Shown here one piece after another: positions 1-44,674 of a DNA stretch of 64,000 nucleotides. Below the pieces are notes generated by a model. It was not told the origin of the DNA. It did not search any database and saw nothing but the letters and a program-made list of their open reading frames with translations. Position numbers and translations under genes: made by a program. The DNA is taken from positions 8,884,156 to 8,948,155 of the forward strand of contig JADWOT020000008.1 in NCBI GenBank assembly GCA_036345935.2. Reading direction: 5' to 3'. Within the stretch, counting starts at the first letter, position 1, and every line of letters begins with the position of its first letter. Source of the stretch: Taenia hydatigena (taxonomy: Eukaryota; Platyhelminthes; Cestoda; Cyclophyllidea; Taeniidae).

Positions 1-3000
1 ATCAAACAAAGCATATTTTCATTGATCTAGCACCTGCTTTGCCTGTAAAAGACTGCATTTACTGATTGCACTTTAACTTGTTGCCTGAACATCATTTGAC
101 AGAATCAATTAGCCATTTGGTAGGTGGTTTTGATTCTGCACTGTAGCGTCCCACCAATTTCTAAAGTTGCAAATTTGGCATTGAGAACTGTTTTCCTCGC
201 TTAGTGATATGGATACAGAGGCAAGTTGCATGCCCCCATACCCATAGCATAGACGAGGCAGATGCTCGGCGCGGACGAGAATGCTTCAGTAACGAATTAT
301 CTTTGTAGACCGGTCTCGATGTTGTGGTGTAGATATGTCGGTAAAGTAGTGTGCAGTAGTGAAGAAAGGAGGCATATCTGAGATGGTAAGTGTGAATTGG
401 AACTTTCCTGTGCCCTTTGCATTGCTGACTGCAGATGGTAAACTAGGATGAGTGGCTGCGATTTGGGCATGTGTTTACGTGGTAAGGATCTCACTGATCG
501 CCTAACCTAATGTCCATTCTATAACACAAAGAAGTGTACAAAAAGGATCTTAGTGAGTTTCTAGGTCGTTTGCAGCTAGCCGGAGAAGGCAGCCTGGTTG
601 TGAGCCTAGGTAACTAAGTGGTTTCAGAGGCGCCAAGCTGTCGCAACTGATCGTCCATTGTGCATCCGTTTGTTGTGAAGGCAGATCAGTATTTGCAAGC
701 ATTTTAGCTTCTAAGCCGCTAGTATCATTAATAAAATTAATTTTACGTTTTTTGGATCCTTTTAGCAAAGTTTCGTCTGATTAAAGACAGTATTAGATGC
801 TGTGACTTAAAATGGGCAATTGCTCCTTTCCGTCACTTGCAAATGCCTCGTGTCACACAATGGGCAAGGACGATCGGTCATCCTGGCTCGTGCCGCAGAT
901 GCATTAATTAGGATAAATGGAAGCGAAAAAAGACGAGATAAGTGTATTAGAATGGGGCAGTTATCTGAGCCGAATCTGTGGTGTGGCGGTCGTAGGGCAG
1001 TCGCTGGGAGGCACATCTTCACATCTAAAATTCGAGAGCACTTGATTCTTTGCGGATTGTAGTTCTGCGTTGATGGCACGAACATTAACTTCACAGCGCT
1101 CGATTCAGTAAGTTCCCAGTGTTTGGCATGCTAGTGTGAATAAAGCTAAGGGGTGGGTACGATTTCCTCCCCGACATTATCACTCAAATATGATTACAGA
1201 TCATTTCTATTTATTTCGTATTTGTAAATTGCAACAGAATACTGTTTCCTGTTAGGTCTCCTTTGCGCTTACGTAACCAACAGTGTCAACATTTCCATAG
1301 CGACATACTGGATTTACTTTTTGCCTTCAATTCACAGTGTAATCAAAGTGGTCTCTGCTTTGCAGCATCACTTGCTTCGATGCTGGCTTATTATGTGCCA
1401 AATAAACCTTGACCACATCTAGTTGTGCGTGTCTCCCTGTTGACCAGAAGCACCGTCGTCAAGCCTAAGGTGCTGAAGTTTGCATTACATAAACTAGTGC
1501 TGTACTTTTAATACCTTGCAAAAGAGGTTATCGAACAGAACTGATGAGGCGGCCGTCAAAACAAACCCACATTTTTCATGGTTCAGACTAGCGGCAATAC
1601 CATACGTTCAGTCAAAATTGCGTATGGTAATTTAACTGCAAGTCACTTTCTCCACCTCATGGATTTTCAGGGCCTCTAAATGTTGCGTCAAGCAGGCAAA
1701 TAAGGTACGGACTAAGGCGTTTAATTTGTGACAGTATGCCTTTAGAAACTAATTATGTACCTCGAAACGCAGAGGCAGTCGAAGACTAGAATGGTTCTGC
1801 CAAACACCATAAAACTCTGCGGAAGCAAACGTGTTTCGCTAATCTTTAACAAAAAAGACAAGTTTCGAAGATTTGAAATAAACGAGAATTCAAGTGATCG
1901 GAGGAAGGAGACGCTGATGGAATGAAGCAGCGTCAGAGGAAAGACCGTTTATAGGACATCCTTCGAAAGCATTATTCGCCTTTTGCTTGGTCACATAGCC
2001 TTGCTCAAGCGTGGATTTTCTTTAAAAGACTCAAAGTCGATAAGAGACTCTTTACTGCCAGACCTTTCTGCAGACGGACAGGATCGGCACAAGCAGTGGA
2101 ATATAAATTATGAATCAGAATGCGAAAGTGAGGCAGTTGGAAGAAAAGATTGCAGTTAAGACATTACCACCATTGTTTTCGGCTCGAAGGAAATTCTATT
2201 CCTAGCAATGCACCTCAAGAGTCAGACGCCATCCAGATTTCAGCTTTCGAGGAGCTACTCGCGAAATACTGTCAATACGAAAATAGCCTCACCACAGATG
2301 GGTGGTTAAAAGAACGACTTTTTGGACAAAATTTGCTACTTTTTGTGTCCGAAACATGTTGGAATTTAACTCATTTTCTGCAAGCATTAGCATAGGGTTA
2401 TTTTGATTTTAGATGCTTCCAGCTGTTAGAGGACACCAGGTTGTAGCATTCCAAACAGTGATTATGATTTCTATGATAATTTCGATTGTGCTAATTATTC
2501 GTTTCCAGAAGAGACCGAGAACGGTGCAGTTGGACACACCGTGCTGACATGTGGCCATTGGTCACTGCGCGGATGGTCTGAAGACCACTTGCAATAGCAA
2601 ATTGTTTGTTCAAGGCGCCACAGTGTTCTGAGAGCGGCGCAAAGGCATACGGTGCAGTTTGACAATGTGGACGAAGGATATGGCCAAGAAATCACAAAAG
2701 GAAAGCGCATGTGACTTCCTGAGCATGTATAGTGGTAAAAGAAAGGAGGCGATTCTTCTTCTCTGTTAATTATTTAGCTTCTACTAAAATCTTAATATGT
2801 CGCATTATGTGACTGTTTTTTCTGTATTTTGAAGTGCTGACATCAGCGATGACTCAGATTAATGAATCACACCAAAGACTAAAGTGATTTGTAGCCAGCA
2901 TTCGCAGATGCGTTAATTTAGGCTGCAAAATACGGAACATTCCAGATCTTTATGCTAATTTTAGACTGAGGGATTTCGAGGATATATTTCTGCCGAATGA

Positions 3001-3261
3001 AATCGTTTTACTTTAGGCAAAGTCTCTTTTGTTTTTCCACTTGGCTGCCCATAAACAGAAAATGGTCGAGTCAGATAAGGATCTATTTCTCTTATTGCTT
3101 ATTCAACGAATGCGTGGCAGACCTTTGCATCATGCATATGGGTGCGTGATCCATTGGGGTGAGCTGTGCTTTGCCCATCACTCACAATGGAACCGCTAAC
3201 ACCCAGTCGGTTCTTTCATACCGACAGCTGAGTATCAGTCGCCTAAATCAAATTTAACGGT

Positions 3262-3500
3262 ACGGCAGGCTCCATGTGGCAAACGTTAAGTCTCCGTCCA
3301 AACTTGGACTGCATGTGAATGATGTTCGAGGCCGTGGGTGGTCTCCCATTTCCTCTGTTTTCCAATTCATCAGATAGTTTTCGCATTTGGTGCAACAGGT
3401 GGCAAAACAATTGGACGATCAATTTGGTGAAGATAGTGCAGTGGGCCTGTCTCCATGTCGTATGGAGGAGAAGGGAAGCTTTACACGCTCAAGCATGTCC
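3262..3500 (+). repeat. Dispersed repeat A, copy in left arm (mirrored at 23390-23628)
   Basis: It matches 17583-17835 in the same orientation at clearly diverged but easily aligned identity, including shared runs such as AAAACAATTGGACGATCAAT. Two reading frames are conserved between the copies. One gives a shared QNNWTINLVK segment. The other gives a shared VAKQLDDQF segment followed by VGLSPC. The second frame is hydrophilic and more protein-like. Both copies are too short and diverged to be functional genes. I read this as a relic of a once-coding repeat. Confidence 0.8.
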
Positions 3501-4069
3501 TCCATTATTCGGTCCATGAAGGCATTGTATAAAGTCTAAAGAAGCCTTGAGTATATGCATTCTACAATGTTGCTTCAAAAAGCCTACAACTTTCATTAAT
3601 GCAGTGGCTTTGTTTAGGACGAGACAAAAGGGGTAATGCATTAGACCGATGCGATTCTCCTTGTGGATGCATTCGCGCAGACTATAATGGTACCGTAATC
3701 ACTCAGCATCAGACTACGGCGAATGAGGACAAGAGTTTTCTTATTAATAATAATTTGAAATGAAAATCTGATGCACCAAAGGCTGTCTGCTCGCATTATC
3801 TGACTTAACTAGTCAGTCAGAAAGGATGACTGATTTTGCGACTAGATATTTCTGACTTCGTCTGCTTTCCTGCAGGTTGCATAATAATGCGCGTGGTATC
3901 AGGTGGCATATACTTGCAGACAACGAGGCGCATTTTTCCTGCCGTGACCCTCGTCGATAACCTCTCAACATTGAATTTGAGTTGTGAGTTCACACACCGC
4001 TTTGCGATGATCTGTACACACGCTGAGTTCAGGTTGAAGACAAAGGAATGTAGATTCTACAATTAGACA

Positions 4070-4860
4070 ACATTGAGTTTGCTTTCCAGTGACTGACTTT
4101 ACGCACTCTATATGTTGTTAAAATGAGAGAGCATCAACTTGAGATCAGTGAGCGTTACGAACTATGATCCGCGGTCGTAATCATAATGAGATTTCAAATC
4201 AAGGCGAAAGCTTACCTCAAATCGTGTTAGCGTCATTGAGATACAAAAGGTGGCGCATGGTTAAATGAACCTTTGATATTAAATCCACTATTTTTGCATT
4301 CTTTTGGTTAGTCTGTGTCGAACATCAACTGATTGACAAAATATGGCCTAATCGTGTTAGTTGCCCGTGCTTTGCACCTTCCTCTGGAATCACTGATGAT
4401 ATCAGCAAGGCAGGTTTAATTGCCATGAGATCGGCCTTCCAAATACTAAACAGAACGACAAATTTTTAGCAGAAACCTGATAGGCCTGTAAATGAGGGTT
4501 CGCTGGTTGTTCGTTTGCTTGAGACGTCCAATATTTTAACATGTACCTGGTTCAACTGCCCAGTTAAGTGTTTTATGTTCCATTCGCAATTAATTATGGA
4601 GTCCATATACCGGCTTGCCGCCATTATATCGTACCATCAAGCGAGCATGAGCAGTGGTTGTTTAAGTGAGAGTTGGGAGCACAACAGTCGACTACTTCAT
4701 TGTGGTATCTTAGCCTCCACGTATAATTGCCAGTAAGATGTGACGATGTTGGCAGTGTCTGAGTCATCTGCAGTCACAGTCACTTTTGATGGCAGGCCAG
4801 CCAGGCTTAAATTAGCTGTAGACCGAATCGTTAAATGGCTGACCAGCCAAGCATTTTTGG
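4070..4860 (-). repeat. Dispersed repeat B, copy in left arm (mirrored at 22030-22820)
   Basis: The complement of this stretch aligns with 6540-7190 at diverged identity over several hundred bases. Shared blocks include GGTATATGGACTCCA and ACAGGCCTATCAGGT. A frame is preserved in both copies: the 73-codon frame at 4515-4736 (+) and the 98-codon frame at 6670-6966 (-) share NILTCTW, CP, KC, HS, ESIY and HQ at the same spacing. I do not recognise the peptide. Confidence 0.85.
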
Positions 4861-5144
4861 GGGTTAGACCTCATTTTAAAGTTAGTTGGCTTTAGTTTAT
4901 AGCCCCGGACATCCTTTGGCGTCATTTTAGCGCTCTAGGCATCGTTTCTCGGATTTGAAATTCACGTGGCTCTGTCATGCTGCAAAGAATTCAGATAACG
5001 GTAGGATTTACGGTCGTTTGAAATCAATCTAGTGCCCATTTACCCATGCAGACTCACTTATTTACTTGCCATCTCAACTTTACCTCTTCCTCACCCACCA
5101 CCATCACAACTACTGGCCCTTCACTCTAACTCTACCACCTGGCT

Positions 5145-6530
5145 CGCATTCAATATCCATTCTTCCCTCTTTCTCTCTCTCTTATTCCATCTTCCTCTTT
5201 TGGCCTTGTTTTTTTTATTTTACTTCTATTCGGAGTTTCTTCGTTCTTTCCTCCTTACCCTCCACAACCACAGATTTAAGGAGAGTCACCCCGTGTTGCC
5301 TAAAATCACCTCGTTAATATCAAAAAAACTAAACAATTATAAGCAGGAATGTCAATCGCCTGCCTTTATTCAACCGATCAGCACGCAACTCGTCTGGTGC
5401 GTACTCCTGCCTTTCGTCATATTTTGGGTGGTACCACTCTCCAGGAAGAGAAGAGTGATTGTTTAATAACTTATTGTCTTGCTTATCGCAAAAAAGGAGC
5501 AACGAGGAAAAGATTATTCAAAGACCAACGCACCAACGCATTGTGTGTTTCGTTTGACCTCTGCTTTGATACACTCGAATTGCATGCAATTCATTACCAA
5601 GAGAGGCATCTGCTAGTGGGCTATGAGTAGTTGAAGGCAAGATAATGGAGAGAGATTAAAAAAATATTGGTAGACAAAAAGAAGTCGAGCCAATAAATAG
5701 AGGCAAGAAAGGGGAAATGATGAAGAGAGGGAGGGAAGAAAGAGCCTCAACTAATGTCAGTGAGGCTCAGGGTCTCATCCCGCTCTTCTGCTTGTTTGAG
5801 TAATCACCTGCAAAATCTCTCTGGTTAAAAAATGGGAGTCGCGAGTCCAAGACTAGCTACCCTGCTTAACTACACAGGCTCTGAATCTTTCCTATTGTAA
5901 CATCAACCATTCGATATGTTTGCAAGCGGCACTATATTGAGACTAAATTTAATAGTCTGATTCCTTCCATGGAGTCATTTATACAACAGCAAATTTTGCC
6001 GATTTCTGCACCATCCGCGAAGAATGAATGCAGCAAAGTCTAAAGCAGCGCATTGATCGAAAGTTGTGTCACGCATTCGCGACGTGATCCGGTGTTGCTA
6101 TTTATATTGGAAGAAAATGGTTATAGAAGGGCTGTGTACTCATGCTACATACGTAGACTTTATCAACTTCATGCACACTCACGCCGTTATTAAGCGTAAT
6201 TGATCGTTTATCGCACTCACTTTACGATACGCAATGCAAGTCATTTACTTACAGGATATTCCCGCCTCTGGATAGTTCTGTGGTCACCGATATGTGACGC
6301 TCAAAGAGTATAGGCTATTCCGCCAATAACGCTCAGCGTTGCAACTTGCTGTTTTCGCAGCAAAACAAACGTACACTGCCACTGCCTGAGGGGCTAACAT
6401 TATTTATGTAGTTTACAAACTTGTCCACGGTTGGATTCAGCTAAGTAATTGCGTTCCGGAATCAAAATTTTTAGTTATGCTGGCATTGCGCATGTATCTT
6501 CAGAGGACACCTTACCTTGATAATGAACAA
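5145..6530. other. Start of spacer between the arms; no gene recognised
   Basis: This begins inside a strongly pyrimidine-rich stretch (about 5060-5245, mostly C and T on the + strand) that straddles the end of the inverted-repeat match. An open frame of 144 codons (5032-5466, +) crosses the same junction. Its protein is dominated by Leu, Ser, Pro and Phe, as expected from translating a CT-rich tract, so I do not call it a gene. The remainder is unremarkable AT-leaning DNA with short open frames. Confidence 0.5.
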
Positions 6531-6539
6531 ACCCATGAG

Positions 6540-7190
6540 AGCAGCTGCTCAGTTGGGAGGTTAGCTGTTCATTTGGATGGTTCTGCTAGTCAGTTATTTA
6601 ACAATGCAGCTGAAAGCTCATTTGAACCTGACTAGCTGGCCATCAAATTTGACTGTGGTTGCAGATGAATCAGGCACTGCCAACATACGTCACATCTTGC
6701 TGGAACTTATGCGTGGAGAATATGAAATCACAAAGAAGTGGTGGGCTGTCGGGCTCTTGACTCTCACTTGAACTGCTAATGCGGATGCTCTCTTGATGAT
6801 GTGATTTTACAATGGCAAGCTGGTATATGGACTCCAAAATAATTTTCGAATGGAGGATACGACACTTACATGGGCAGCTGAGCCAGGTACACGTTAAAAT
6901 ATTGGGCGCCTCAAGCAAATGAACAACCAGCAAACCCACATTTACAGGCCTATCAGGTATCTTCAAATAGCGTGTGACCCCGTTTAGCGTTGAAATACCA
7001 GCCTCATGGTAATTAGACCTACCTCATCTATGCCCTCAGTGTTCCCGGAAGGAAGTTCAGAAAGCTGATTGCTATTGCGACTGCGGATCACAACTCCTAA
7101 ATCTCGCCGATCAAAGGTTGGTGCCCTCTCATTTAAACAACATTTAGAGAGTGCAAGGTTAGTCACTAGGAAGCAAAATCAGCGTTATCT
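6540..7190 (+). repeat. Dispersed repeat B, spacer copy
   Basis: It aligns with 22030-22820 in the same orientation and with the left arm in inverted orientation. The copies differ by many substitutions and small indels, in contrast to the near identity of the two arms, so the repeat family is much older than the arm duplication. The minus-strand frame at 6670-6966 keeps the Cys-rich segment described for the arm copy (NILTCTW, then CPCKC). Confidence 0.85.
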
Positions 7191-7199
7191 AATCATCCA

Positions 7200-10100
7200 A
7201 TCTGCATTTGATTTGATTTTCTGGCACAAGGCCTTTAAGGCTGACCCCCAAGACGGACTCGAATCGTAGACTATAATTTGCTAGGCGTACCGGATGAACT
7301 CGATTAATAAAAATGTAGCTTGCAGAGATAAGCTACTAAACAACGTGTTTTACTTTAATTTTAGCGAGGTTATAATGGATGCTGTGCCCTTGTTTAATCA
7401 AAATCGTGAGCAAAGCTTCAGATCGGAGGTTGGAAGAAAGTGACATTAAATGTGCATACACATGCACAAAACACAGGTTTACTCTACACATTTTGGTCCA
7501 GGAGCTCCGTGGCGTTATAACTAACCCACTCAATCAGTTGTTCAAGATTAAGCTCAAGAAGATACACGAGCTTTGTAAGGGTCCGCTCAACGAAGCACAA
7601 AGCTCTTTGCAACTTGTATCCTGTCTTTTAACTAAATAACTCATGACCAGGTGATCTTCATTTTCCTTACACTCGTTGCACATCTAATACCTCCCGCAAA
7701 CCAAACGGCTGTTCTGGTAGGCTTCATTTTGACTACATCCAGCTGGAAAAATGCCGACCCAAGCTGGCTTGCCACACACCACCGACAAGTGATTCAGTCA
7801 GACATGGGGCCTCCAGCATGGGCCGTAAGCCTGTTGGATGCCTAAAGCATGCAACGAGGCTCTAGTCTCTTTCATTTGGTAGATGGATTGTAATGCGCTC
7901 TCCCACTGACATATCTAAGTTCGTGTACTCCTTCCATTAGGCGTCAGGATGCTATTCTTAAGCCAAATTTGTCTTGTTGATACTTTATGCGTTCTTTTAA
8001 GCAAGGATATACGAAGTCCGTGATCGGTTGGCTTTCAACCGACCATTTCTGCCACCATTCTGTAGGCGACTACCACGTCCTTACGTCAACGCAGCGGGAT
8101 CTATTGTGGCAATGGTAGAACGCGAACCCTGATTTAAGACGACACCACAACTTCATTAGTCAACACGAGTGGAAGCAGATTTCGAAAAGCGAATGAGGTG
8201 GGAATCTCGCGTTCAATCTGCTCTTACAAGAAGTGCCATCAATCAGTGTTTCCGTGGTCTATTAAGCCGCTCGAAACGTGCAGACAATGACTTCCAGTCT
8301 GATACTTTGTTTCAGCAGCCTCATTATGTCATTTTAGGCTATTAAAGCCAGGTGTTGCCGCAAGTACCAGCATCCTCCATTGCAGATAAAAGAGCATAAT
8401 GTGGTTCGCTGAAGACAGACATCACTTTCATCCTTCACCTAATCGGCTGTCTTTGTCGATTGAACTATCCGCGCCAGCTGGCCTCTCCGCATTAATTCGG
8501 GGCCTAGTAATTAATCGAAGAATTCAGGCTTGCTTGTCTGTCACTAAAGCAAAGTGGAAACAAACCGAGCAGTAAAGGGAATCCTGCCTCATAGATGACA
8601 AAATTGACTATAGAGGAGTAGGGTGGCAACACGTTAACGAGAGAGAGCACAGCATGTGATTAACTAAGGGTCAGGAGGGTGTTGAAGATTACCTAACAAA
8701 ATACCACAGCAAAGTACCTAGACCTAAGGCTTTTGAATGGGGTAAAACCTGACTTTTCTACCAATATTTCAACCTGGCGGTGAAGCATCATCTTCCTGCT
8801 TACTTAAAACACGCACTATGATGCTCCAGGTAGAATTCCATTTCAGTGGTTTGGTGTGCTTAAAACGCTGTCCGCTCGATAACGGCAACAAATGAGCATC
8901 GTTGGGCGAATTCGGACACACTGCTGCTACCGCATAAGGATCATGAGTAGTAGGCGTAGCTACAACACATCCTAACTATTTTTGTTGCATAAGCATCATA
9001 GGATCCCCTAGGCGTGGACACAAACAGTTTTAAAGCCAGTCATTAAAAACCACGGTGAGGAGCGGCATCAGGCGCATTAGAGTGCTGATTGGGTGAAAGG
9101 CGTAGATGTGCTACTTAAATCGCTCACGGGTGGCACTCAAGACGGTAATGATCGGTATTTTATTAGCCCTCTGTGAAGGCCATCATCACCCATCCCTTCT
9201 CTTCTCTAGCGTTTTTATTCTATGGTCATTTTGTGATAAGCTTTTCCTGCCCTGTCATATTTCCTCTTCAATATCCCTACCAAACGAGGCGCCTTTCGAC
9301 AGAGAAAAATTGTGCATCGACATCAGATAAGTAAGTCGCAACAAACGAGGCAAACGTTAGTGCAACATCTTTCATTCCACGCATCAAAGTAACATCAGTG
9401 ATATTGGCGGTGAAAATGCGGTCTATTTTCGTAGGTAGTGCTTGACTCTAACTCTGCATCTGACACCAGTGCCCACAAAGCTGTCACACAATTTGTGGTG
9501 GTGTGCTGTACTCTCTCCGTAACTGCGTCACCCTTTAGCAACCACACACATGCCAAGTGAGGGCCGTTAAATTTGACTAGACCTCGAGCGTGGTGCCCTC
9601 TCTCTTACCACCTCTGCAGCCAACAAAATGTGAGCAACACACCGCAATGCACCTCACCTCATCGCACCACACCAATCGACTAACCTGACCTAAGTGTCTG
9701 CACCACACAGAGGGGGACCTGATGGCTCTGATTTGAGTTAGCTCTGCCAATGCTGTGTGGATAGATCTGGCCTCCTCCCAATGCCACACATCTCTTCACA
9801 CATGCGGAAGTAGAACACAGAAACCGCGTCCTGTGTGCCTCTGTGCTCTGAAGTCATGAACAACAAAAGCCATGATGGTCAATCCAAATCAAAAAATGGC
9901 GAACTCTTGCCCTGCAGGTTTTAATCTTTCTAAGCCACAAAGGCGGTGAGCCTCCTGACGTTCTCTCATCGCTTACTCATTATAAAAATATGGTTTTTCA
10001 AAAGTTACGCGTGGGCGAAAGAAGGAGGTTGTATACCCTGCGTAAAAGGCACTGGCGGCATGCATCCACTCAGCTTATGCTTTCTGTCAAATATGCGTTG

Positions 10101-12450
10101 CCCGTAACAGTTTTAGAACACCGCAGCCTACTCTTACAAAACATCGAGGAGAAACAGGCAGCACAGACATCCTAGGCTCTCTGCTACCCACCAGCAGCGG
10201 GAATTGATGCATTTTGTTTGATGAGAGTAGGCCAGGCATCATTCGTCTTCCCAAGCCACTAAATTTATAGCAGAAAACTTAAACATGAGCTTGAGATTAC
10301 TCGTATTTATGTCCAGGCCTACAAATTATGCATCCGTTTGCGTTTTGCTGCTCAACATGCCCACGTAATTGAAGTTTAGAGGCAAACAATAAATTTTCAA
10401 AAAGATGAAAAATTGGTTTCATGCAGTGTAAGAGAATTCTCATTGCAGCCAAAAGGGATGAAGAAGTTGTTCATTACCAGTAAGAAACGATTGCAATTGT
10501 CATTCCTCGACCAAGCAAACATCTATACGATCTAATCGACGTCAACTGTGAAAGCGATCTTGAGCACGTCTAAAGTTCCATCATCCATGGGGCCCAGATG
10601 CAAAGATGTCGAAGGCTTTTACAATGCTTTTAAGGGTTTCCAGCGTTGATCCTATCTCGGCAGAAAAGCGCAGATCACGCCAAGTCACAGAAAGCGTTTT
10701 AAGACCTCGGGCTAATTCAGTTATTAGAAGCTGAGAGAATTGGAACCGCTTTTAAAAGAATATTAGGCATTTGAGGAAATAGAAGCAGGTCAGGCCTATT
10801 ACATGCCAGCAAATTTGCCCTTATTGTTAATAGTCTTTCAAGCTACTCTTCGTTACACGACCAGATACGGTCTTGGAGATACAATATGCTTGAATACGGT
10901 GTTAATACCAAAGACATGGGAACTACTGTTACTAATTCGGGTGAATATTCAACCCCTCCATCTCAGGTATCGCAAGTTTGAGCATGCCAGACAAGAGTGC
11001 TTCAGCAATGTGAAGAAAGTCAAGAAGCCAATTTTGAGGTGGTGCAGGGTTACTTACAGACGGCTGGAAATGGTCCCAAGGAGGCTACGCATGCAGTAGC
11101 TAAAATTTGCCAACTTGTTACTGCGGCGTTACCCTGATGCTACACTAATGTGTGGCAACAGTTCGCAATTAAACTTTAAACTCTGGCCTGGCGTTGACTT
11201 TACCTAGCATTCAACTGCCCGTCAAATCCCTTTACACGCGCACCCACTGCAAGCAAATGCCGTTGTTAGCTTCAGCGACACTGCATTGCTCACATTAGTA
11301 CACGTGGAAGTGCATCTGTGAAGGTGTCTGCACATGTCGTCCGATGAGTTGACTAGTTCGCAGTAAGAATCCCTCACTCCCTTCTCTCGACCACTGTCCG
11401 CCCCTCTGCCATCCAACACATCCACTTCTCTCCCAACATGTAGTTGTCAATTGTGCCAAGTGTGTCAATAAATTTGTTTTTCGGTAAAGTAAGACAACAT
11501 ATCGAAGTGTAAGGCCTCCAAAAATGGCAGTAAGGGTAGAGTTAGAAGATAGCTGAAGAGAAGTCGTAGAACATCAGTTTTACACCAATCTACCCCTTCT
11601 TCTGTGGATAATTCCCTGAGTTTGCAAAATTCGAGCTTACTGAAGTTGATGGGTCGAGACTATAATTCCTTTATCGTTTGACGATGGTTGGTCTGATTCC
11701 ATCCACACTGGCATTTTCTGTATAAGAACAACAAATGAATCATGAGGCGCTTAAACCAAATAACGGCCAGTTAAAATGCGATAGAGCTAAAAGTGGAAGT
11801 GAGCTAAGAACTCAATGGTAGCATTTTTCACGTTCAAATATGATTGATTGGGGGGGTCAGTCGTCCAAAGTAGAATGAACTAAAGCGCTTTACGACTTCT
11901 CTTCAGCCATCTTCATGCCCATTTCTACTGCCCTTTTCAAAGCACTTTAACCTCTTTTGGGGTCGCATTTTGCCGTAATAAGTCATCTGCGCACTTGGCG
12001 TATTAAATGTTGCCACAAAATAATCACTCGATTGCAAAGTGGGTGATCGCGTATCAGGTGATGAAGCATAACTAGTGCAAGCAGACAATTGAGGTAGCTT
12101 TCAAATATGCTTGCGAGTCAATCGTAAGCAAAAATGACGAGGATCAAACAATTTGGAGGGACTGAGGTTGTCTCGATGCTTACTAAGCTGCCAAATCAAT
12201 CCAGCGTTGTTTAAAGGTATTCAAAAAAAAAGTCACTTAGATGTTTAATGAACGCCTACAAATGCAACTGCATACAGCTTTGAGGTTGGCGCCATCCTTT
12301 CTCAAGGTCATCATTGACTATTGACCGACTGGCCAATAAATCAATATCTTCAAGAAAGTAATCAATGTCCCATATGTCGTGATGCAATTGCGCATCGTAG
12401 GCTTTTAGAAGTGCCCTTAAGCTGCTCATCGCATATACTACCTTGACCAT
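7200..12450. other. Spacer segment without a convincing gene
   Basis: Only short open frames are present (up to 98 codons, 10803-11099 +). A tRNA-type B-box-like string, GATTCGAGTCC on the minus strand, lies near 7251-7261. It lacks a matching A box and acceptor stem, so it is at most a tRNA-derived relic. The frame at 9106-9330 (+) begins with a hydrophobic stretch, but nothing else supports it. I see no intact mobile element. Confidence 0.4.
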
Positions 12451-14263: not shown

Positions 14264-14399
14264 GAGCTGGAGCAAAAGGAAGGGAACTAGAAGGTTCACG
14301 ACTACTAACGCACTCTGAAAGGGGTGCATCGACGCGACGAGAGTATCGGCCCTCGGCTTTGTAAATTAAAAGCCTCATTCAGACCGCAACTGTTGTCGT

Positions 14400-17165
14400 G
14401 CCGTCGTTCTGCGTCGACAAGGACACTGAAACTTGGTTCCTCATAATTGCGAAGGTTAGCCAGTACCGTAGATTGCGTGGAACTGAGGTTAATTAGTATC
14501 AGGTTCCCTCCCTAACCGCAAATGTAAATGGGATCGAAAGAGATTCAAAACATTAAATAAACTTTGTTTTTATGAAAGACTTACGTTCCTTTGATTGCGA
14601 AACCATCTTCAGCTACTCACCTTACATACACAGACTTCGTCAATAAAATTAAGTCGAGGACAGAGGATAGTGATTGCCAACTAGCAGAAAAATTTAGTAT
14701 TTGCACTATAGTTTTGCGACTGCACCTACACAGAAATGCAGTCACAAATTATTTTTAGATGCCTCACTCTCGAAACCATTATGCCTGTAAACGTTAAGGT
14801 CGAAAGAGAAGTGTCCTCACAAAAGTATTCTTGCCTTCTCTTCCTCATTTGCCACGCCTATTTCTTCCTCCTCTATTATCGCACATGCACAAGCTAGCAG
14901 CGAAATAAAGCCCTCCTTCTTAAGAGAAAGAAAACCAGGACAGGCAGTTGGGCTGGTCCTACACGTAACTTTTCCTTGACCAGGCAGCCTGTGCCGCTCA
15001 CACCTCTCTCACTTCCATTTATTTGCCTTTTCTACATCTTCCCCTTCAATTGCCTTTTCCTTCCACAGAATTTTAATCTTCTTGATTGATTTGCGCCTTC
15101 TTTTTCCTGTGCACTAGACGCGCTACTTACTTTCTCTCGCGCTGTCCGAGCAGTAGTTGTAGTGGGCCTTTAAGTGCCTTCCACTTTTATTGCCCTCCAG
15201 CCCACCCATCCCAAGCACCTACTACCACTGCTACTACTACGCATTCAAAGTCGATCTAATCTATCAACAAGATGCAAATATGTGAATAACGAAGGAAGTG
15301 CGCTAAATCTACATGGACTCTACCCAGTAATTTTGGCTTTGAGGTCATACTTTATATAATTCTACGCACTATACGCGATTGGAAGACGGAAGCAATGTCT
15401 TGAACAATTGTCATTCCCAGTGCATCCCTATGAGCTGCCGATTACCCCAGCGCATTGCACACATTGCTGTCCTTTCTCGTGATCTGTAGAATTTTAAGCT
15501 ACGACGTGCGACGACATCTAAACAAAGAGTGGGTTTGCAATGACCCCCATTACTAGGCCCCGAGTCCTTCAGTGCGCTGACTATAAGGCTTGATAGAACC
15601 CATCAAATGTGTGTTAAAGCAGCTTACGATAACTGCTATTCAAGCGAATCCCGTATTAACTATCTGATCATTTATCAGCTGTCCATTTTTTGCTACCCGC
15701 CTGTTGCGACAACCCGACAATCAATATCAGGCATCTCTCGTGGTGCCAGTCAACATTTTGAACAATCCAGTAGAGAATGACGTGACCTCAAAAGCATGCT
15801 GGATGCTAGAGCACTAATCAATCTCGTAGCGCGCTGAGGAAGGTGAGGATTTGGCAGCGAACTAAAGGCCGCACATAATGTCGACAATTATTTTATGAAT
15901 GGCTTGAGGACAGCGAGAGTTGTTGCCTGTGCCAAAAAAGCTTAGCACTAGCCCATTAAAAAGTTTCTACAATTTAATTCTCATTTCTTATCAAACAGGT
16001 CAAATATCAGACAAGACTCGACTAGATCCGTTATATGACTAGGCAGCATTCTGAGTTACCCACTACTCACACAAAACATTCATTTCAGAGGCCCATCCGA
16101 CCAATCACATTTGAATGTCAAAAGTGCTATCATTGAGTTCTCAACTGTGTGTTAACTTACCGTTATTTAGTGTGAGCTCTTCCTAAATCATTGGCAACGA
16201 TGCAAATCATTATCTTTGCATGTTAGTCTTTAGCAAAAAATGCTAATGCAGGGGATCTTAAGCCACTCATTACCTAATAAGGAAAGATTTACAAGCCCAA
16301 TGCATCAACTTCAGTATGCTTGACTTTTATAAACTCTGGAAACCATTCACAGAAGTAGCAATAGATTAGTTGAGAACGAAAACTAGTAAGCAGAAGCCAA
16401 GCTGATTGTAAGCAGACAGAGTAACTACAGACGCGCGACATGACACTCTTGCCAAGGTACGGACCAAACCACGGAGGGGGAAGGGCATCACAAAGTTTTG
16501 GTACCTTTGCAACACACGCAATGCCCAATGACACGAGCTTGGTGCATTGGCTGAAAAGACTCTGAATGTTGGTTTTGGGATGGACCGATTACCTTTATTG
16601 ATGCGGCTTTCCTTCAAACATTGTTCTTTAAGCATATATCATTCCAGCGGCTTCCACCGGCCCACATCCACTCATAAAACAGTCAATCGAGATTTACTAG
16701 CATACGCGGTATGCGTAGTCTATGCCACAGATGGTGCAGATGCCATGATGCAGACCAAATGAACTCGTTTGGTCAAAACTAGAACTAGTAAATGGAAAGA
16801 ATTGAGCTACCTACTTATATTTGCTTCATCGAGGGCAAAATAGAGGAAGTGACATTGCTGAAACGAAAGGCGTGCGCACAACCTTAAATTAGCCAATGGT
16901 AGGAAATAAATTTAAATGCGCACGAAGCACAGACAAATCATGCAAACGGGATGGGCAACACTGGTAATGGGTGAGATCCGCAGCAGTAATAAACAACAGA
17001 TGCAGCTACCCAATCGAAGAGAAATTAAGCAACAGTGGAGATCACAATACGAGTTGTGGTGATTGCAACGAAGAATCTCCTCATCGCCATGACGCAAGGC
17101 TGTTGTAGGCTGCTCTATTTCACCAATACATATAAAATGAGAAGTAGACACTTTGTTGAATGCTT
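14400..17165. other. Spacer segment; CT-rich short repeat G at about 14835-14935
   Basis: There is no convincing gene. A pyrimidine-rich tract at 14835-14910 ends in a block with GCTAGCAGCGAAATAAAG, which resembles a second pyrimidine-rich tract ending in GCTAGCGGCAAAATAAAG at about 19677-19694. Both end in an AATAAA-like signal. A further CT-rich stretch follows at 14990-15130. The rest holds only short open frames in both strands. Confidence 0.4.
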
Positions 17166-17169
17166 CGGA

Positions 17170-17465
17170 TGCTTTTCTTTACAAACGCGGAGGGGCACTC
17201 TCATTATTCTGATCGTGCAAGAGAGCATTACGATAACGTAGAGGAGTTCTTTCGTGGCCTCGCGTCAGGAGAGTTTCCTGCTAATGCACAAGCTCCGATC
17301 AGCTGTTTGATCACCACACCATGTCGCTGCACGAAAACTTCGCCGTATGGGATGAGGCGCTACAAGTGCGATTTGCCAGTACTGCATTCTGCTTCCTCCA
17401 CTCGTCTCTTCTTGGATGTGTCTAAAGACGTTCCCACCTTTTCAGACCAGTAGAATCCATTCTTG
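17170..17465 (+). repeat. Dispersed repeat C, spacer copy
   Basis: It aligns with 37430-37705 in the same orientation. Shared blocks include GTTTCCTGCT and CTCCGATCA. A frame conserved in both copies gives MSLH, then STAFCF and SSLLG at the same spacing, pointing to a once-coding sequence that I cannot identify. It is followed by repeat A in the same orientation. Confidence 0.8.
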
Positions 17466-17582
17466 ATGGCAGCAGGTGGCACCGTATTGGACATGCGTGA
17501 ATGGTCCCGGATTTTGAACATCGGGACTGTGGACACCTGAATGCTGTAGGCGACGTCCTCACGTCAAAGCAAACGCTTGTTG

Positions 17583-17835
17583 TGACAGGCTCGATGTGGC
17601 AAACACTGGATCTCCTCCCGAACTTGGACTGCATGCAAAAGATGTTCGAGGCCGTAAATGGTTTTTACTTTCTCCCTTTTTCCAAGTTATTTGATAGTTG
17701 TCGCATTTGGAGCAACCAGTTGCAAAACAATTGGACGATCAATTTAGTGAAGATGGTACAGTGGGCCTGTCTCCATGTCATATGGGAAAGGACCGGAGCC
17801 TTACACGCCCAAGAATGTTTACGACTAGTCAGTCT
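17583..17835 (+). repeat. Dispersed repeat A, spacer copy
   Basis: This is the diverged partner of 3262-3500. It lies about 120 bases downstream of repeat C and in the same orientation, so C and A may belong to one longer ancestral element. The frame holding VAKQLDDQF is still open here for 72 codons (17698-17916), and an overlapping frame of 129 codons (17501-17890) carries QNNWTINLVK. The overlap shows that at most one of the two was ever translated. Confidence 0.8.
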
Positions 17836-17839
17836 ACGA

Positions 17840-19080
17840 CAGCATTCAATGAAGTACCCAAAGCTTTCAAAATTAAATATTATATACTGATGATTGAAAA
17901 GGCCTCCACTTTTTAGTAGTGCAGTGGGTGGGTTCGGAACAAAATAGAAGTGATTTGGAATTGGCTAACCATGGCTAATAGATTGGCTCAGTGCCATTAT
18001 CGTTGTAGAGGCATTCTTGTATGCTATAAGGGCATCATTATCTCCCTCGCTAGAAATTTTGCGCAGTCAAAACACCAACTTGAGCAGGTAGTACAAATGG
18101 AAAACAACGAGTCTTCACAGCAACCGCAGCTGCTTCTTTAACGCTTTTTGTATTTAAGCAGTTAAAGGAGGCAGATAAACAGGTGTGTATATAAATGCAC
18201 ACAGTAGGTTCTTAGTCGCAAGATAATCTTCAATAAATGTCAAGCAGCTGGGTTGGTTATAACTCTCCTTAACTAAGTTACGCATCATTATTAGAAGTCA
18301 ACCTTCAGTAAAGGAGCCAACCACTTCTATAATTATCAAAACAAGCATAATTTATTGCCTGAAGTATCGTAGAGTGTAAAAATGCGGTTGTAGTTGGAAA
18401 ACCAAGCATCCTAATGGTTTCTTTATGAAGCTTTTGTGTTTACTCTGGCAAGTAAAAGTAGAAAGGAAGCAAATCGGCATCAAAATGACCTAGAACCACA
18501 AACACTAAACTTGTGACTAGCAAGAAGCATTGGATACCTACCCAACTGATATGAAACGAGGGTCCCTAAAATGCACACCACTTACACGCTCAATATACAG
18601 TACTAACCAATCACCTCAGTCTTTGCTTGATAAAACAAACAAGCTTTTAATTTTTGTGTTTTATCCTTAAGTTTAAGGCTGTTGCTGGTGCTAAGATTTG
18701 TTTTTGGTGTTATATTTGAAGAGTAAACATATAAACAAAACAAATTACAAAGCATGCAGCAATGAGAAACTCAGCAACGAATCGTAAGGATATAAAAACA
18801 AATGAAACTATTTATAAACAATGTAAAGACAAAATCACGTTTTTTTTTAAAAGGCAAACCTTTTTTGCTATTTATTTTTAGGTTTTAGGTTAGATGGAGC
18901 GTGTAGTACTTTGTTAGTTAGAACTGCCGGTTTCTGTCAGGGTCACAGTTGTGGCCGTACTGCCCTTGCTGCGTGGGCTGGCCTCTGGGCCATTCCAGCA
19001 GCCTATTTCCCTCTGCCCGATGAATATATGTATTCTATCCTGCCACTTTGCCTTCTTTTGCCTTAAGGGAGCCTCGAGAC
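17840..19080. other. AT-rich spacer segment, nothing recognised
   Basis: There are only short open frames and A- or T-rich runs (for example near 18838-18850). I see no splice-supported exon or repeat partner in the window. Confidence 0.4.
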
Positions 19081-19084
19081 GCTA

Positions 19085-19305
19085 CAGAGCGTGCTTTGTA
19101 GGTCAGAGCAGGACGACAATTTAAACCTGGTTGCGGAGTAGCGTGCTGGCTCCTAAGGGCGTAATTTATCCCTGTTTTGAACTCTCCTACAAGATCTTTC
19201 CGTGCCCACTCCCTTGTTTATCATAGAAATGTCGAAGCGTGTTCAGACTTTTTAATATCATGGGCGGTAAGAGAGAAGAGGAGGAACGCTCTAGACCCGT
19301 TGCAT
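19085..19305 (+). repeat. Dispersed repeat F, spacer copy
   Basis: It aligns with 61155-61365 in the same orientation. Shared blocks run from TTTGTAGG through TTGAACTCT to GTCAAAGCGTG/GTCGAAGCGTG and a purine-rich end (GAGAGAAGAGG against GGGGAAGAGAGG). Divergence is substantial. No reading frame stays open through both copies. Confidence 0.7.
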
Positions 19306-19330
19306 AACATGACTGACGTTTGGACTTACA

Positions 19331-20840
19331 AAAGTCAATTTTCTTTCCGATTCGCTGCAAATTTTTAACACTTGACTTTTAATTATGACCTTTCTTAACT
19401 TCATGTTACGATTAACTACAACACAAAGGACGGTTAAGGTTACGAGCGAATAACTGGCTTGTGTGGTTTGCTCCACGTTTTCTTTTACGTTTCTTTCAAT
19501 TAGGGTATGCCGATTTCTCAAAGCTTCTCATCGCCCCCCTACTTCTTTCCTCCCTTTTTGCTCTTCCTATCTTCCATTTATTCATTTATACACTGCAAAT
19601 ATCTTCTCCTATTCCTTTCCTCCTTTACCGCTCCTGATTCCTCCTTCCTTACTGTCACGCACACACACGCACACCGGCTAGCGGCAAAATAAAGTTTCTT
19701 TTTCCATGACAGGAAAGCAAACAGAAATCTCCGGTACTATCAAGCGCTTAGGGGTTCGATACATAAGCCATCCCTCTTAAGACGTGTCACCGTACCCTTG
19801 AACGCCATGCATGAGGACCCCAAAGGACCAGATATCAGCTTTAGCATTTGACTGGTAGCTGCTCATTATTGCCTCTGGTGGCAACCAACAAAAAGGTAAG
19901 CACCTAAAGAGCGATGAAGGAAGCAGAAAGAAAGCAAATCACCAATTAACGCTTTGGTCGATAGAGGAGCCGTTTATCTAATGGGCACATAAAGACCGAA
20001 TGAAACTAAATTTTGGTAAAGCCTCAACCAAAGCCAAGGATTTCTTACTCGAAGCTAGTGAGCGTCATGGAGCCACTCTCGTCTTTATCACGTTTGGCAC
20101 TCGTAAATCGCCCTCCATCACTTGCCATATCTTTAGATACCTCTCAACCATTACAGCCATCCAATCAAACAGAATACGTGCAATCCTATTATTGTTGACT
20201 GACTAATCTATCTATTATTGTAAAAATGCCTTCTCGAGGGTAAGTTACACGTAACATCAGTGGATTAAGGCAGAGGCCGAAGAACGTGCAATATGCGTTG
20301 ATGCGAAGGTCTTTGCATAATCTTTTTCTCCTCAACAAAGGCTTCAACGCTTAAGCCGTTAAAACTCTACTTCACTGCTACCCTCAACTAGCGTGTGAGA
20401 CTCGGATAGAATGTAATGAAGTTGCCCCTTCCCACTTCCTCCTCCGGCTTCAAGTCCTCTCAATGGGATGCAGGAGCCGTTGCACATAGACGTGCCTTAA
20501 CCAGACCCATCTGAAAGGTTAGAGGTCTTGCTAAGAAAGAGAAAGGGAATCGAAAAAAAAAACAAAAAGAATGCAGAAAAGACTGGTCTGATCTACTGTC
20601 AATATGAGGCGGAATTCAGAATACCGACTGTTACTAACATGAAGTTATCGGTGCAAGATGTTTCGCTCATGCAAAGCTTTAGGATCTTAGTTGCAAACTG
20701 TTTCAGGGATCTTTTTGGGATTACGACAGTAGCGAACTATGGTATTCATTTTATTTGCCATCACCAGGTCAACCGGTTCTTCTCTACTTAGGCAAGAGGA
20801 ATGGTGCCAATGACATGATATTGAGTAAGAGCACAATCTG
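19331..20840. other. Spacer segment; CT-rich tract and second copy of short repeat G
   Basis: Bases 19528-19660 are almost entirely C and T. They are followed by a short CA-rich run and the GCTAGCGGCAAAATAAAG block also seen at about 14890-14935. Overlapping Leu/Ser/Pro-rich open frames here come from the tract and are not called as genes. The remainder shows nothing recognisable. Confidence 0.4.
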
Positions 20841-21420
20841 ACAAAATATAGCAATCTGTTGCAAAAGTGCTGTAAGGATCATTTCATATGCTCAACCCAA
20901 ACGCATTTCGGGTTGAATGCGGTGAGTTGGTAGCCCATGTATATATCTGTGATCTTGTGCATCCATATTTTGATATTTTCGAGGCTGCAATTACAGGAGA
21001 GGAGTATACTTATGCCTATATCCAACTGCGTGACATCGTCACCATTCAGCATGGGGGCTAAACCATGCCGTGACAGGCTCAAGTTCTGTAGGAGGTGATG
21101 TGTGTGTGCGCGTCATCTGCTTGGTGGCCATCAAGGGGATATTGCTAACCTCTCCACAGAATGGGACCTTGTAATAGTCATCGAAGTGTGGCACTGGGAG
21201 GGTTCAGGACCTTTTGCTACGATCGTGTCCTCCATCGGTGCCATTCATCGTAATTTTAGGGCAATCTAGTGGCGGAAGTCAGGACACGAGTGCAGCCACT
21301 GCTTCCTGGACCGAACAAGGCTACGTGTTCCCAACTGCTACTTATAAATTTCTACCCTTAAATTGATGGCTGTACTAGTCATGCCAGTGCTTGTTATTTT
21401 TACGACTTCAATTCCCTCCT
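20840..21420 (-). repeat. Dispersed repeat D, spacer copy (inverted)
   Basis: The reverse complement aligns with 37712-38265. Shared segments include TCAGTGACTG-like and GACGGAGGACACG-like blocks, then CACACACACATCACCTCC and CATGGTTTAGCCCCC. One frame is kept in both copies and reads TDGGH, FDDYY and THTSPPTELEPV. The copy at 38 kb has about 80 extra bases near 38127-38190. Confidence 0.85.
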
Positions 21421-21745
21421 GATTTCACTTGGACGTATGCATTACGACTCCCATTTTCCTGACCAGAGCTGCTTTTGTTGTTATGTATGGCGCGTACTTC
21501 GTATCAACGGATCATTGTTAGCAAAACCAATCCTTGTATTTTAGGCAATAAAGGTGATAAAAGACAGCCAAGGTTGTGGTTTTTGAGAGAGAGGCTGTAA
21601 ATTGCTTATCTAATGCAACCACTACTACTGGGTGAAGCCACTCGATAAAAGAAAAATAACCGAAAACCGTCGAGACATCATCATGTGACTGGGGTGCAAG
21701 TTGTGAGCCCGCCGAGAAAGGAGGAGGAGGAGATGGGGCTATACC

Positions 21746-24700
21746 AGCCAGGTGGTAGAGTTAGAGTGAAGGGCCAGTAGTTGTGATGGTGGTGGGTGAG
21801 GAAGAGGTAAAGTTGAGATGGCAAGTAAATAAGTGAGTCTGCATGGGTAAATGGGCACTAGATTGATTTCAAACAACCGTAAATCCTACCGTTATCTGAA
21901 TTCTTTGCAGCATGACAGAGCCACGTGAATTTCAAATCCGAGAAACGATGCCTAGAGCGCTAAAATGACGCCAAAGGATGTCCGGGGCTATAAACTAAAG
22001 CCAACTAACTTTAAAATGAGGTCTAACCCCCAAAAATGCTTGGCTGGTCAGCCATTTAACGATTCGGTCTACAGCTAATTTAAGCCTGGCTGGCCTGCCA
22101 TCAAAAGTGACTGTGACTGCAGATGACTCAGACACTGCCAACATCGTCACATCTTACTGGCAATTATACGTGGAGGCTAAGATACCACAATGAAGTAGTC
22201 GACTGTTGTGCTCCCAACTCTCACTTAAACAACCACTGCTCATGCTCGCTTGATGGTACGATATAATGGCGGCAAGCCGGTATATGGACTCCATAATTAA
22301 TTGCGAATGGAACATAAAACACTTAACTGGGCAGTTGAACCAGGTACATGTTAAAATATTGGACGTCTCAAGCAAACGAACAACCAGCGAACCCTCATTT
22401 ACAGGCCTATCAGGTTTCTGCTAAAAATTTGTCGTTCTGTTTAGTATTTGGAAGGCCGATCTCATGGCAATTAAACCTGCCTTGCTGATATCATCAGTGA
22501 TTCCAGAGGAAGGTGCAAAGCACGGGCAACTAACACGATTAGGCCATATTTTGTCAATCAGTTGATGTTCGACACAGACTAACCAAAAGAATGCAAAAAT
22601 AGTGGATTTAATATCAAAGGTTCATTTAACCATGCGCCACCTTTTGTATCTCAATGACGCTAACACGATTTGAGGTAAGCTTTCGCCTTGATTTGAAATC
22701 TCATTATGATTACGACCGCGGATCATAGTTCGTAACGCTCACTGATCTCAAGTTGATGCTCTCTCATTTTAACAACATATAGAGTGCGTAAAGTCAGTCA
22801 CTGGAAAGCAAACTCAATGTTGTCTAATTGTAGAATCTACATTCCTTTGTCTTCAACCTGAACTCAGCGTGTGTACAGATCATCGCAAAGCGGTGTGTGA
22901 ACTCACAACTCAAATTCAATGTTGAGAGGTTATCGACGAGGGTCACGGCAGGAAAAATGCGCCTCGTTGTCTGCAAGTATATGCCACCTGATACCACGCG
23001 CATTATTATGCAACCTGCAGGAAAGCAGACGAAGTCAGAAATATCTAGTCGCAAAATCAGTCATCCTTTCTGACTGACTAGTTAAGTCAGATAATGCGAG
23101 CAGACAGCCTTTGGTGCATCAGATTTTCATTTCAAATTATTATTAATAAGAAAACTCTTGTCCTCATTCGCCGTAGTCTGATGCTGAGTGATTACGGTAC
23201 CATTATAGTCTGCGCGAATGCATCCACAAGGAGAATCGCATCGGTCTAATGCATTACCCCTTTTGTCTCGTCCTAAACAAAGCCACTGCATTAATGAAAG
23301 TTGTAGGCTTTTTGAAGCAACATTGTAGAATGCATATACTCAAGGCTTCTTTAGACTTTATACAATGCCTTCATGGACCGAATAATGGAGGACATGCTTG
23401 AGCGTGTAAAGCTTCCCTTCTCCTCCATACGACATGGAGACAGGCCCACTGCACTATCTTCACCAAATTGATCGTCCAATTGTTTTGCCACCTGTTGCAC
23501 CAAATGCGAAAACTATCTGATAAATTGGAAAACAGAGGAAATGGGAGACCACCCACGGCCTCGAACATCATTCACATGCAGTCCAAGTTTGGACGGAGAC
23601 TTAACGTTTGCCACATGGAGCCTGCCGTACCGTTAAATTTGATTTAGGCGACTGATACTCAGCTGTCGGTATGAAAGAACCGACTGGGTGTTAGCGGTTC
23701 CATTGTGAGTGATGGGCAAAGCACAGCTCACCCCAATGGATCACGCACCCATATGCATGATGCAAAGGTCTGCCACGCATTCGTTGAATAAGCAATAAGA
23801 GAAATAGATCCTTATCTGACTCGACCATTTTCTGTTTATGGGCAGCCAAGTGGAAAAACAAAAGAGACTTTGCCTAAAGTAAAACGATTTCATTCGGCAG
23901 AAATATATCCTCGAAATCCCTCAGTCTAAAATTAGCATAAAGATCTGGAATGTTCCGTATTTTGCAGCCTAAATTAACGCATCTGCGAATGCTGGCTACA
24001 AATCACTTTAGTCTTTGGTGTGATTCATTAATCTGAGTCATCGCTGATGTCAGCACTTCAAAATACAGAAAAAACAGTCACATAATGCGACATATTAAGA
24101 TTTTAGTAGAAGCTAAATAATTAACAGAGAAGAAGAATCGCCTCCTTTCTTTTACCACTATACATGCTCAGGAAGTCACATGCGCTTTCCTTTTGTGATT
24201 TCTTGGCCATATCCTTCGTCCACATTGTCAAACTGCACCGTATGCCTTTGCGCCGCTCTCAGAACACTGTGGCGCCTTGAACAAACAATTTGCTATTGCA
24301 AGTGGTCTTCAGACCATCCGCGCAGTGACCAATGGCCACATGTCAGCACGGTGTGTCCAACTGCACCGTTCTCGGTCTCTTCTGGAAACGAATAATTAGC
24401 ACAATCGAAATTATCATAGAAATCATAATCACTGTTTGGAATGCTACAACCTGGTGTCCTCTAACAGCTGGAAGCATCTAAAATCAAAATAACCCTATGC
24501 TAATGCTTGCAGAAAATGAGTTAAATTCCAACATGTTTCGGACACAAAAAGTAGCAAATTTTGTCCAAAAAGTCGTTCTTTTAACCACCCATCTGTGGTG
24601 AGGCTATTTTCGTATTGACAGTATTTCGCGAGTAGCTCCTCGAAAGCTGAAATCTGGATGGCGTCTGACTCTTGAGGTGCATTGCTAGGAATAGAATTTC

Positions 24701-26889
24701 CTTCGAGCCGAAAACAATGGTGGTAATGTCTTAACTGCAATCTTTTCTTCCAACTGCCTCACTTTCGCATTCTGATTCATAATTTATATTCCACTGCTTG
24801 TGCCGATCCTGTCCGTCTGCAGAAAGGTCTGGCAGTAAAGAGTCTCTTATCGACTTTGAGTCTTTTAAAGAAAATCCACGCTTGAGCAAGGCTATGTGAC
24901 CAAGCAAAAGGCGAATAATGCTTTCGAAGGATGTCCTATAAACGGTCTTTCCTCTGACGCTGCTTCATTCCATCAGCGTCTCCTTCCTCCGATCACTTGA
25001 ATTCTCGTTTATTTCAAATCTTCGAAACTTGTCTTTTTTGTTAAAGATTACCGAAACACGTTTGCTTCCGCAGAGTTTTATGGTGTTTGGCAGAACCATT
25101 CTAGTCTTCGACTGCCTCTGCGTTTCGAGGTACATAATTAGTTTCTAAAGGCATACTGTCACAAATTAAACGCCTTAGTCCGTACCTTATTTGCCTGCTT
25201 GACGCAACATTTAGAGGCCCTGAAAATCCATGAGGTGGAGAAAGTGACTTGCAGTTAAATTACCATACGCAATTTTGACTGAACGTATGGTATTGCCGCT
25301 AGTCTGAACCATGAAAAATGTGGGTTTGTTTTGACGGTCGCCTCATCAGTTCTGTTCGATAACCTCTTTTGCAAGGTATTAAAAGTACAGCACTAGTTTA
25401 TGTAATGCAAACTTCAGCACCTTAGGCTTGACGACGGTGCTTCTGGTCAACAGGGAGACACGCACAACTAGATGTGGTCAAGGTTTATTTGGCACATAAT
25501 AAGCCAGCATCGAAGCAAGTGATGCTGCAAAGCAGAGACCACTTTGATTACACTGTGAATTGAAGGCAAAAAGTAAATCCAGTATGTCGCTATGGAAATG
25601 TTGACACTGTTGGTTACGTAAGCGCAAAGGAGACCTAACAGGAAACAGTATTCTGTTGCAATTTACAAATACGAAATAAATAGAAATGATCTGTAATCAT
25701 ATTTGAGTGATAATGTCGGGGAGGAAATCGTACCCACCCCTTAGCTTTATTCACACTAGCATGCCAAACACTGGGAACTTACTGAATCGAGCGCTGTGAA
25801 GTTAATGTTCGTGCCATCAACGCAGAACTACAATCCGCAAAGAATCAAGTGCTCTCGAATTTTAGATGTGAAGATGTGCCTCCCAGCGACTGCCCTACGA
25901 CCGCCACACCACAGATTCGGCTCAGATAACTGCCCCATTCTAATACACTTATCTCGTCTTTTTTCGCTTCCATTTATCCTAATTAATGCATCTGCGGCAC
26001 GAGCCAGGATGACCGATCGTCCTTGCCCATTGTGTGACACGAGGCATTTGCAAGTGACGGAAAGGAGCAATTGCCCATTTTAAGTCACAGCATCTAATAC
26101 TGTCTTTAATCAGACGAAACTTTGCTAAAAGGATCCAAAAAACGTAAAATTAATTTTATTAATGATACTAGCGGCTTAGAAGCTAAAATGCTTGCAAATA
26201 CTGATCTGCCTTCACAACAAACGGATGCACAATGGACGATCAGTTGCGACAGCTTGGCGCCTCTGAAACCACTTAGTTACCTAGGCTCACAACCAGGCTG
26301 CCTTCTCCGGCTAGCTGCAAACGACCTAGAAACTCACTAAGATCCTTTTTGTACACTTCTTTGTGTTATAGAATGGACATTAGGTTAGGCGATCAGTGAG
26401 ATCCTTACCACGTAAACACATGCCCAAATCGCAGCCACTCATCCTAGTTTACCATCTGCAGTCAGCAATGCAAAGGGCACAGGAAAGTTCCAATTCACAC
26501 TTACCATCTCAGATATGCCTCCTTTCTTCACTACTGCACACTACTTTACCGACATATCTACACCACAACATCGAGACCGGTCTACAAAGATAATTCGTTA
26601 CTGAAGCATTCTCGTCCGCGCCGAGCATCTGCCTCGTCTATGCTATGGGTATGGGGGCATGCAACTTGCCTCTGTATCCATATCACTAAGCGAGGAAAAC
26701 AGTTCTCAATGCCAAATTTGCAACTTTAGAAATTGGTGGGACGCTACAGTGCAGAATCAAAACCACCTACCAAATGGCTAATTGATTCTGTCAAATGATG
26801 TTCAGGCAACAAGTTAAAGTGCAATCAGTAAATGCAGTCTTTTACAGGCAAAGCAGGTGCTAGATCAATGAAAATATGCTTTGTTTGAT
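21746..26889 (-). repeat. Right arm of the large inverted repeat
   Basis: This is the reverse complement of 1-5144. All short open frames of the left arm are mirrored here, for example 4515-4736 (+) as 22154-22375 (-), and 297-494 (-) as 26396-26593 (+). The single amino-acid change between mirrored frames that I saw (Ser to Leu in the frame at 3319/23571) comes from the 3368/23522 substitution. The right flank from 26890 on is unique in the window. Since the left arm is cut by the window start, the real repeat may end here or be longer on both sides. Confidence 0.97.
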
Positions 26890-34970: not shown

Positions 34971-34975
34971 AAGTC

Positions 34976-37428: not shown

Positions 37429-37429
37429 A

Positions 37430-44672: not shown

Positions 44673-44674
44673 TT

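Follow-up and report, generated by a model that had tools for sequence, protein, structure and literature searches.

The first 26,889 bases of the window analysed here, a 64,000-nucleotide stretch of the Taenia hydatigena genome (contig JADWOT020000008.1, assembly GCA_036345935.2), are taken up by a near-perfect inverted repeat, in which two long arms enclose a spacer of 16.6 kb (Table 1). When the window is compared with itself by blastn, the arms align as reverse complements over 5144 bp with 99.922% identity, no gaps and four substitutions (E = 0). The initial annotation of this stretch had claimed that every base p of the left arm (1-5144) has its partner at 26890-p, with no net indel, and this pairing is borne out by the self-comparison, the alignment being free of indels from end to end. 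Since the next longest inverted match in the window has only 416 bp at 83% identity, a chance origin of the match between the arms can be excluded.

Structure of the inverted repeat

The visible arm length of 5144 bp is a lower bound, the left arm being cut by the edge of the window; for the same reason, position 26889 is the mirror of that edge and not a genuine boundary. The window is without any N. Segmental duplications are commonly defined as copies of at least 1 kb with at least 90% identity, and the two inverted copies found here, with 5144 bp at 99.92%, fall well within that definition. Inward of the arms the symmetry vanishes: between position 5145 and the centre, 6218 of the 8301 positions are mismatched, which is the level expected by chance (for the whole half the figure is 6222 of 13445, with four of these in the arm). 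Beyond old repeats of 68-81% identity, there is no second copy of the spacer within the window.

Table 1. Features of the inverted repeat and its spacer, in window coordinates
Feature	Position	Strand	Remarks
Left arm	1..5144	+	blastn self-match to 26889-21746; cut by the window edge
Right arm	21746..26889	-	Left arm in reverse complement; end at 26889 unproven
Spacer	5145..21745		16,601 bp; no second copy in the window except of old diverged repeats
Polypyrimidine tract	5138..5263	+	126 bp; starts at the left inner junction; C+T reaches 90% over 60 bp
Decayed tyrosine-kinase-like exon	19768..19899	-	In the spacer; PF07714, E = 5.7e-06, 26.3 bits (cut-off 23.1); in-frame stop
Arm mismatch	1552 (partner 25338)		G left / A right (reverse complemented)
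Arm mismatch	1839 (partner 25051)		C left / G right (reverse complemented)
Arm mismatch	3368 (partner 23522)		C left / T right (reverse complemented)
Arm mismatch	5015 (partner 21875)		CpG left / TpG right (reverse complemented)

As had been noticed at the outset, the arms contain old and strongly diverged repeats: in the left arm, 4408-4847 is 77% identical to 7024-6585, 4047-4195 is 74% identical to 7208-7060 and 3266-3607 is 75% identical to 17586-17927. Since these repeats are only 74-77% like their counterparts in other parts of the window, the near-identity of the arms with each other is not accounted for by constraint. Two exact short patterns taken from a repeat common to the arms and the spacer gave no matches, one in a search of viral contigs and the other in a search of prokaryote genome contigs, which is what animal DNA would lead one to expect.

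Differences between the arms

Where the initial annotation listed three mismatches between the arms (1552, 1839 and 3368), there are actually four, the one at 5015 having been overlooked. Three of them are transitions (one of these a CpG/TpG difference) and the other is a transversion; with four points only, they give no sign of clustering along the arm (Kolmogorov-Smirnov p = 0.77). They amount to a divergence of 7.8e-4 per site, with a Poisson 95% interval of 2.1e-4 to 2.0e-3.

For two of these positions the direction of the change can be proposed. At 3368 it is probably the left arm that is derived, because the diverged repeat copy at 17586-17927 carries T, the base of the right arm. At 5015 the usual direction of CpG decay, from CpG to TpG, makes the TpG of the right arm the likelier derived state. 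Such a pattern, with one change per arm, fits copies that evolve independently of each other, and it fits two alleles equally well. It would appear that all four differences are true variants, and hence that the arms are either real paralogues or wrongly joined alleles, because uncorrected long-read error favours indels, whereas a polished copy of a single molecule favours zero differences. The homopolymers provide a weak test that counts for little against an artefact: all 17 left-arm runs of at least five bases are equal in the right arm, but the longest has six bases and their equality follows from the gap-free alignment.

The inner junctions

Arm identity ends abruptly at both inner junctions, 5144/5145 and 21745/21746, and no homology was seen past them: by local alignment, the 600-bp flanks score 25.5, as against 22.8 +/- 5.5 for 200 random pairs. 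The polypyrimidine tract that begins at the left junction (Table 1) is the longest among the 10 strongly skewed tracts listed for the window, and its skew is tied with that of a purine tract at 13434. Over 100 bp, the C+T content is 70% at the arm end and 67% in the right flank when this is read in the same sense; the left skew is matched by 0.14% of random stretches on one strand and the right value by 1.8%. If either strand is allowed, about 0.25% of random stretches are as skewed as the left junction, over 60 or over 100 bp. When two cut sites are drawn at random, at least one matches the skew of the stronger flank in 0.4% of cases, and both, in the same sense, in 0.0075%; the latter value makes the coincidence look too strong, because the arm must continue naturally into one of the two flanks. 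Base composition thus points, weakly, to the junction between left arm and spacer as the ancestral one and to the junction between spacer and right arm as new; the left is preferred as ancestral because only the milder skew on the right then has to be put down to coincidence.

Coding content and composition

Six-frame translations, with X at the stops, were compared with Pfam for the left arm, the spacer and, within the 37.1-kb right flank, about 29.9 kb; the scans left out 31890-34000, 48901-49000 and 54001-59000, as well as a separate pass over the right arm, and had a seam without overlap at 5000/5001. As a positive control, Escherichia coli lacZ read in the same way was found at E = 1.1e-128. 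In the left arm these scans detected no Pfam domain, and neither there nor in the spacer did any transposase, integrase or polymerase reach E <= 1, though frameshifted, heavily decayed or undescribed genes could escape them. The sole family above its curated cut-off in the regions scanned was PF07714, represented by the decayed kinase-like exon of the spacer (Table 1), which phmmer aligns to the kinase domains of ROR1 and BTK (E ~3e-5). Tyrosine kinases of this type suggest animal DNA, although unicellular organisms closely related to animals possess them too.

By other measures, the window has one stop-to-stop frame of at least 130 codons, and its best period-3 signal, 4.2, is barely above the 3.9 of one shuffled sequence. 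ARAGORN found no tRNA in the window, and no part of it matches Rfam at the gathering score. The sole Rfam match at E <= 1, to mir-263 at 21178-21256, reached 23.7 bits against a gathering score of 51.3 (E = 0.23) and lies inside a repeat that recurs at 37693-38128, so we take it to be a chance match. A frame of 107 amino acids at 810-1130 on the minus strand yielded one candidate in a large protein search and no relative at E <= 1; similarly, a protein search with a repeat-derived frame at 17501-17887 yielded six candidates, none of them at E <= 1. Matches below the Pfam cut-offs to zf-C2H2_13 in the spacer (E = 0.35) and to Herpes_UL14 (E = 0.071) were treated as chance. A match of 21 residues to DUF261 (1286-1306 of the minus frame of 43903-48900; E = 0.0044, 17.6 bits against a cut-off of 26.1) is probably chance as well.

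At 45555-46001, on the plus strand, a single frame contains two stretches that resemble zinc fingers and are separated by stops. The first has a perfect C-x2-C-x12-H-x4-H pattern shortly past an ATG, and the second, some 300 bases on, has C-x2-C-x12-H with a C nearby; in Pfam, zf-C2H2_2 (E = 0.028) and zf-met (E = 0.22) are below their cut-offs. They are possibly exons of a zinc-finger gene.

The GC content is 42% for the window, 42.7% for the arm, 44.0% for the spacer and 41.4% for the right flank, and the arm does not stand out from stretches of the same 5144-bp length taken from spacer and flank, whose mean is 42.2% (SD 1.5%). CpG is mildly depleted in the window, at 0.76 of expectation. 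Over the whole window (1-64000) the dinucleotides AA and TT are under-represented (0.84) and GC is over-represented (1.26), and one tandem array exceeds the score threshold; such a bias together with one tandem array seems unusual for an animal genome. Two further repeat structures lie in the right flank. The first is a direct tandem duplication of about 373 bp (34975-35347 and 35344-35716, 86% identical). The second, at 37413-38128, consists of two old repeats lying next to each other: 37413-37690 resembles 17167-17444 in direct orientation (79%) and 37693-38128 resembles 21015-21447 in inverted orientation (81%).

Origin of the inverted repeat

On balance, we think it probable that the arms are a genuine and recent inverted segmental duplication, with an unduplicated spacer, in a gene-poor region. 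The initial annotation had left the choice among a recent duplication, homogenisation of the arms through gene conversion, the ends of a giant fold-back element and an assembly artefact; of these the first fits best, and the giant element is disfavoured by the Pfam scans of the left arm and spacer. The support for a recent duplication comes from the indel-free 99.92% identity, from mutations that look ordinary, from the instant drop to chance level at the inner ends, from the lack of any N and from the strong polypyrimidine tract on which the left junction opens. In such an event, a segment measuring 5.1 kb or more would have been synthesised a second time, in reverse and 16.6 kb away, with the spacer left unduplicated. 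The repair probably proceeded by fold-back or by template switching, with one breakpoint at or beside the polypyrimidine tract, and the copies would then have gathered independent substitutions. The arms, the spacer, the abrupt inner ends and the four substitutions are observed; the reality of the duplication, the direction of copying and the mechanism are what we infer. There is a precedent in the human inverted duplications described in PMC3907307, for which unduplicated spacers of 766-70,466 bp are reported and a broken end folding back is given as the cause.

Several considerations weigh on the other side. In the same account of the human fold-back cases, the spacers are shorter than 15 kb in 20 of the 21 sequenced, compared with 16.6 kb here, and two rows of its table give duplications of 4.6 and 41.7 Mb (PMC3907307). 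The left outer end lies beyond the window, so that neither the full arm length nor insertion scars are visible. The pyrimidine content at the junctions was singled out post hoc, with nine other strongly skewed tracts listed in the window, and the tract contains no triplex-type mirror repeat (arms >=9, loop <=10, >=90% purine or pyrimidine), the nearest being at 5492-5511. Finally, the arm identity could also be that expected for two alleles in a mis-joined assembly.

This last point belongs to the strongest of the alternatives, an assembly artefact, which we regard as unlikely but by no means negligible. Either a second haplotype copy or a chimeric read path would have been attached the wrong way round, perhaps where a contig ends close to base 1 of the window. 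The range of allelic differences includes 7.8e-4, the divergence found between the arms; the left arm touches the window edge, which makes a contig end there possible; and the changes in the left arm (3368) and probably the right arm (5015) suit two alleles just as well. Moreover, artificial inverted repeats created by whole-genome amplification are described as finding their way into assemblies, and palindromic reads as arising also from sequencing adaptors that were missed (PMC6218980). Set against this are the absence of N, the four clean substitutions where a single-molecule fold-back chimera predicts zero differences or mostly indels, and a unique spacer of 16.6 kb that seems far longer than would be expected for a simple fold-back read. 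However, none of these arguments speaks against a misplaced allele.

It is improbable, to our mind, that the arms form an old palindrome homogenised by gene conversion as on sex chromosomes, with a spacer that possibly flips. Arms of about 99.9% identity around a unique spacer have the layout of the human Y palindromes, whose arms are given as >99.9% identical (PMC3723533), and for the conserved primate X palindromes the reported median arm identity is 99.953% (PMC8981503). The GC content of the arm is slightly above that of the right flank, as expected under conversion, but it is below that of the spacer and inside the normal spread, which leaves no clear sign of GC-biased conversion, and the left arm is without a detected protein domain. 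The four mismatches are too few for a useful test of conversion. A palindrome that bears genes was rejected, the left arm having no domain and its 107-residue frame no relative at the threshold used. We give somewhat less credence still to the more specific proposal that an old palindrome without recognisable arm genes is held at 99.9% by ongoing conversion while its spacer flips in the population; if true, it would mean that the persistence of palindromes does not require the genes by which it is usually explained.

Marginally less plausible again is that the 16.6 kb spacer was inverted via staggered breaks, the arms being the duplicated breakpoint sequence. Inversions of this type are described as producing the same layout (PMC7584159), and no evidence in the window separates them from a recent duplication. 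Arms of at least 5.1 kb are nevertheless long for the single-chromatid version, for which that source mentions single-stranded DNA of <=3 kb at forks that have stalled and, in its own case, overhangs measuring 58 and 534 nt (PMC7584159), although their length does not count against the version involving sister chromatids. That the arms are the terminal repeats of a giant transposable or virus-like element is very hard to credit in spite of the long terminal inverted repeats around a central region, considering that the scans of left arm and spacer, with their successful lacZ control, brought up no mobile-element domain at E <= 1 (a gene that is heavily decayed or not yet described might escape them) and that the spacer holds a decayed kinase exon and old repeats.

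If the recent duplication that we favour is real, it adds one more recent inverted duplication to those known and would be a locus prone to inversion of the spacer, considering that the arm pair may let the spacer flip through recombination between the arms. In humans, nearly all of the inversions between highly identical inverted repeats studied in PMC6748972 are reported to recur. The two inner junctions and the four arm-specific variants constitute markers for age, gene conversion and flipping. Should the repeat prove to be an artefact, it would flag a mis-join that produces a false copy number in the assembly.

Comparison with known systems

One close parallel to the duplication proposed here is the fold-back inverted duplication (PMC3907307), in which two inverted copies likewise surround a kilobase-scale, single-copy spacer (single-copy within the window in our case). 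The difference is one of scale, the two duplications of that source cited above being megabases long while the arms visible here have 5.1 kb, a lower bound; in addition, the original microhomology of a fold-back is here inseparable from the arm without a relative. The Drosophila inversions with staggered breaks (PMC7584159) resemble the present locus in that inverted duplications flank a segment, and differ in their reported overhangs of 58 and 534 nt, the arms here being longer. The palindromes of sex chromosomes (human Y P1-P8 and primate X; PMC3723533, PMC8981503) share arms of about 99.9% identity and a non-duplicated spacer. Our locus departs from them in that its left arm yielded no protein domain; in size, the median arm of the conserved primate X palindromes is 37 kb (PMC8981503), compared with the visible minimum of at least 5.1 kb here. 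The cause of the inverted repeat is most likely an ordinary one.
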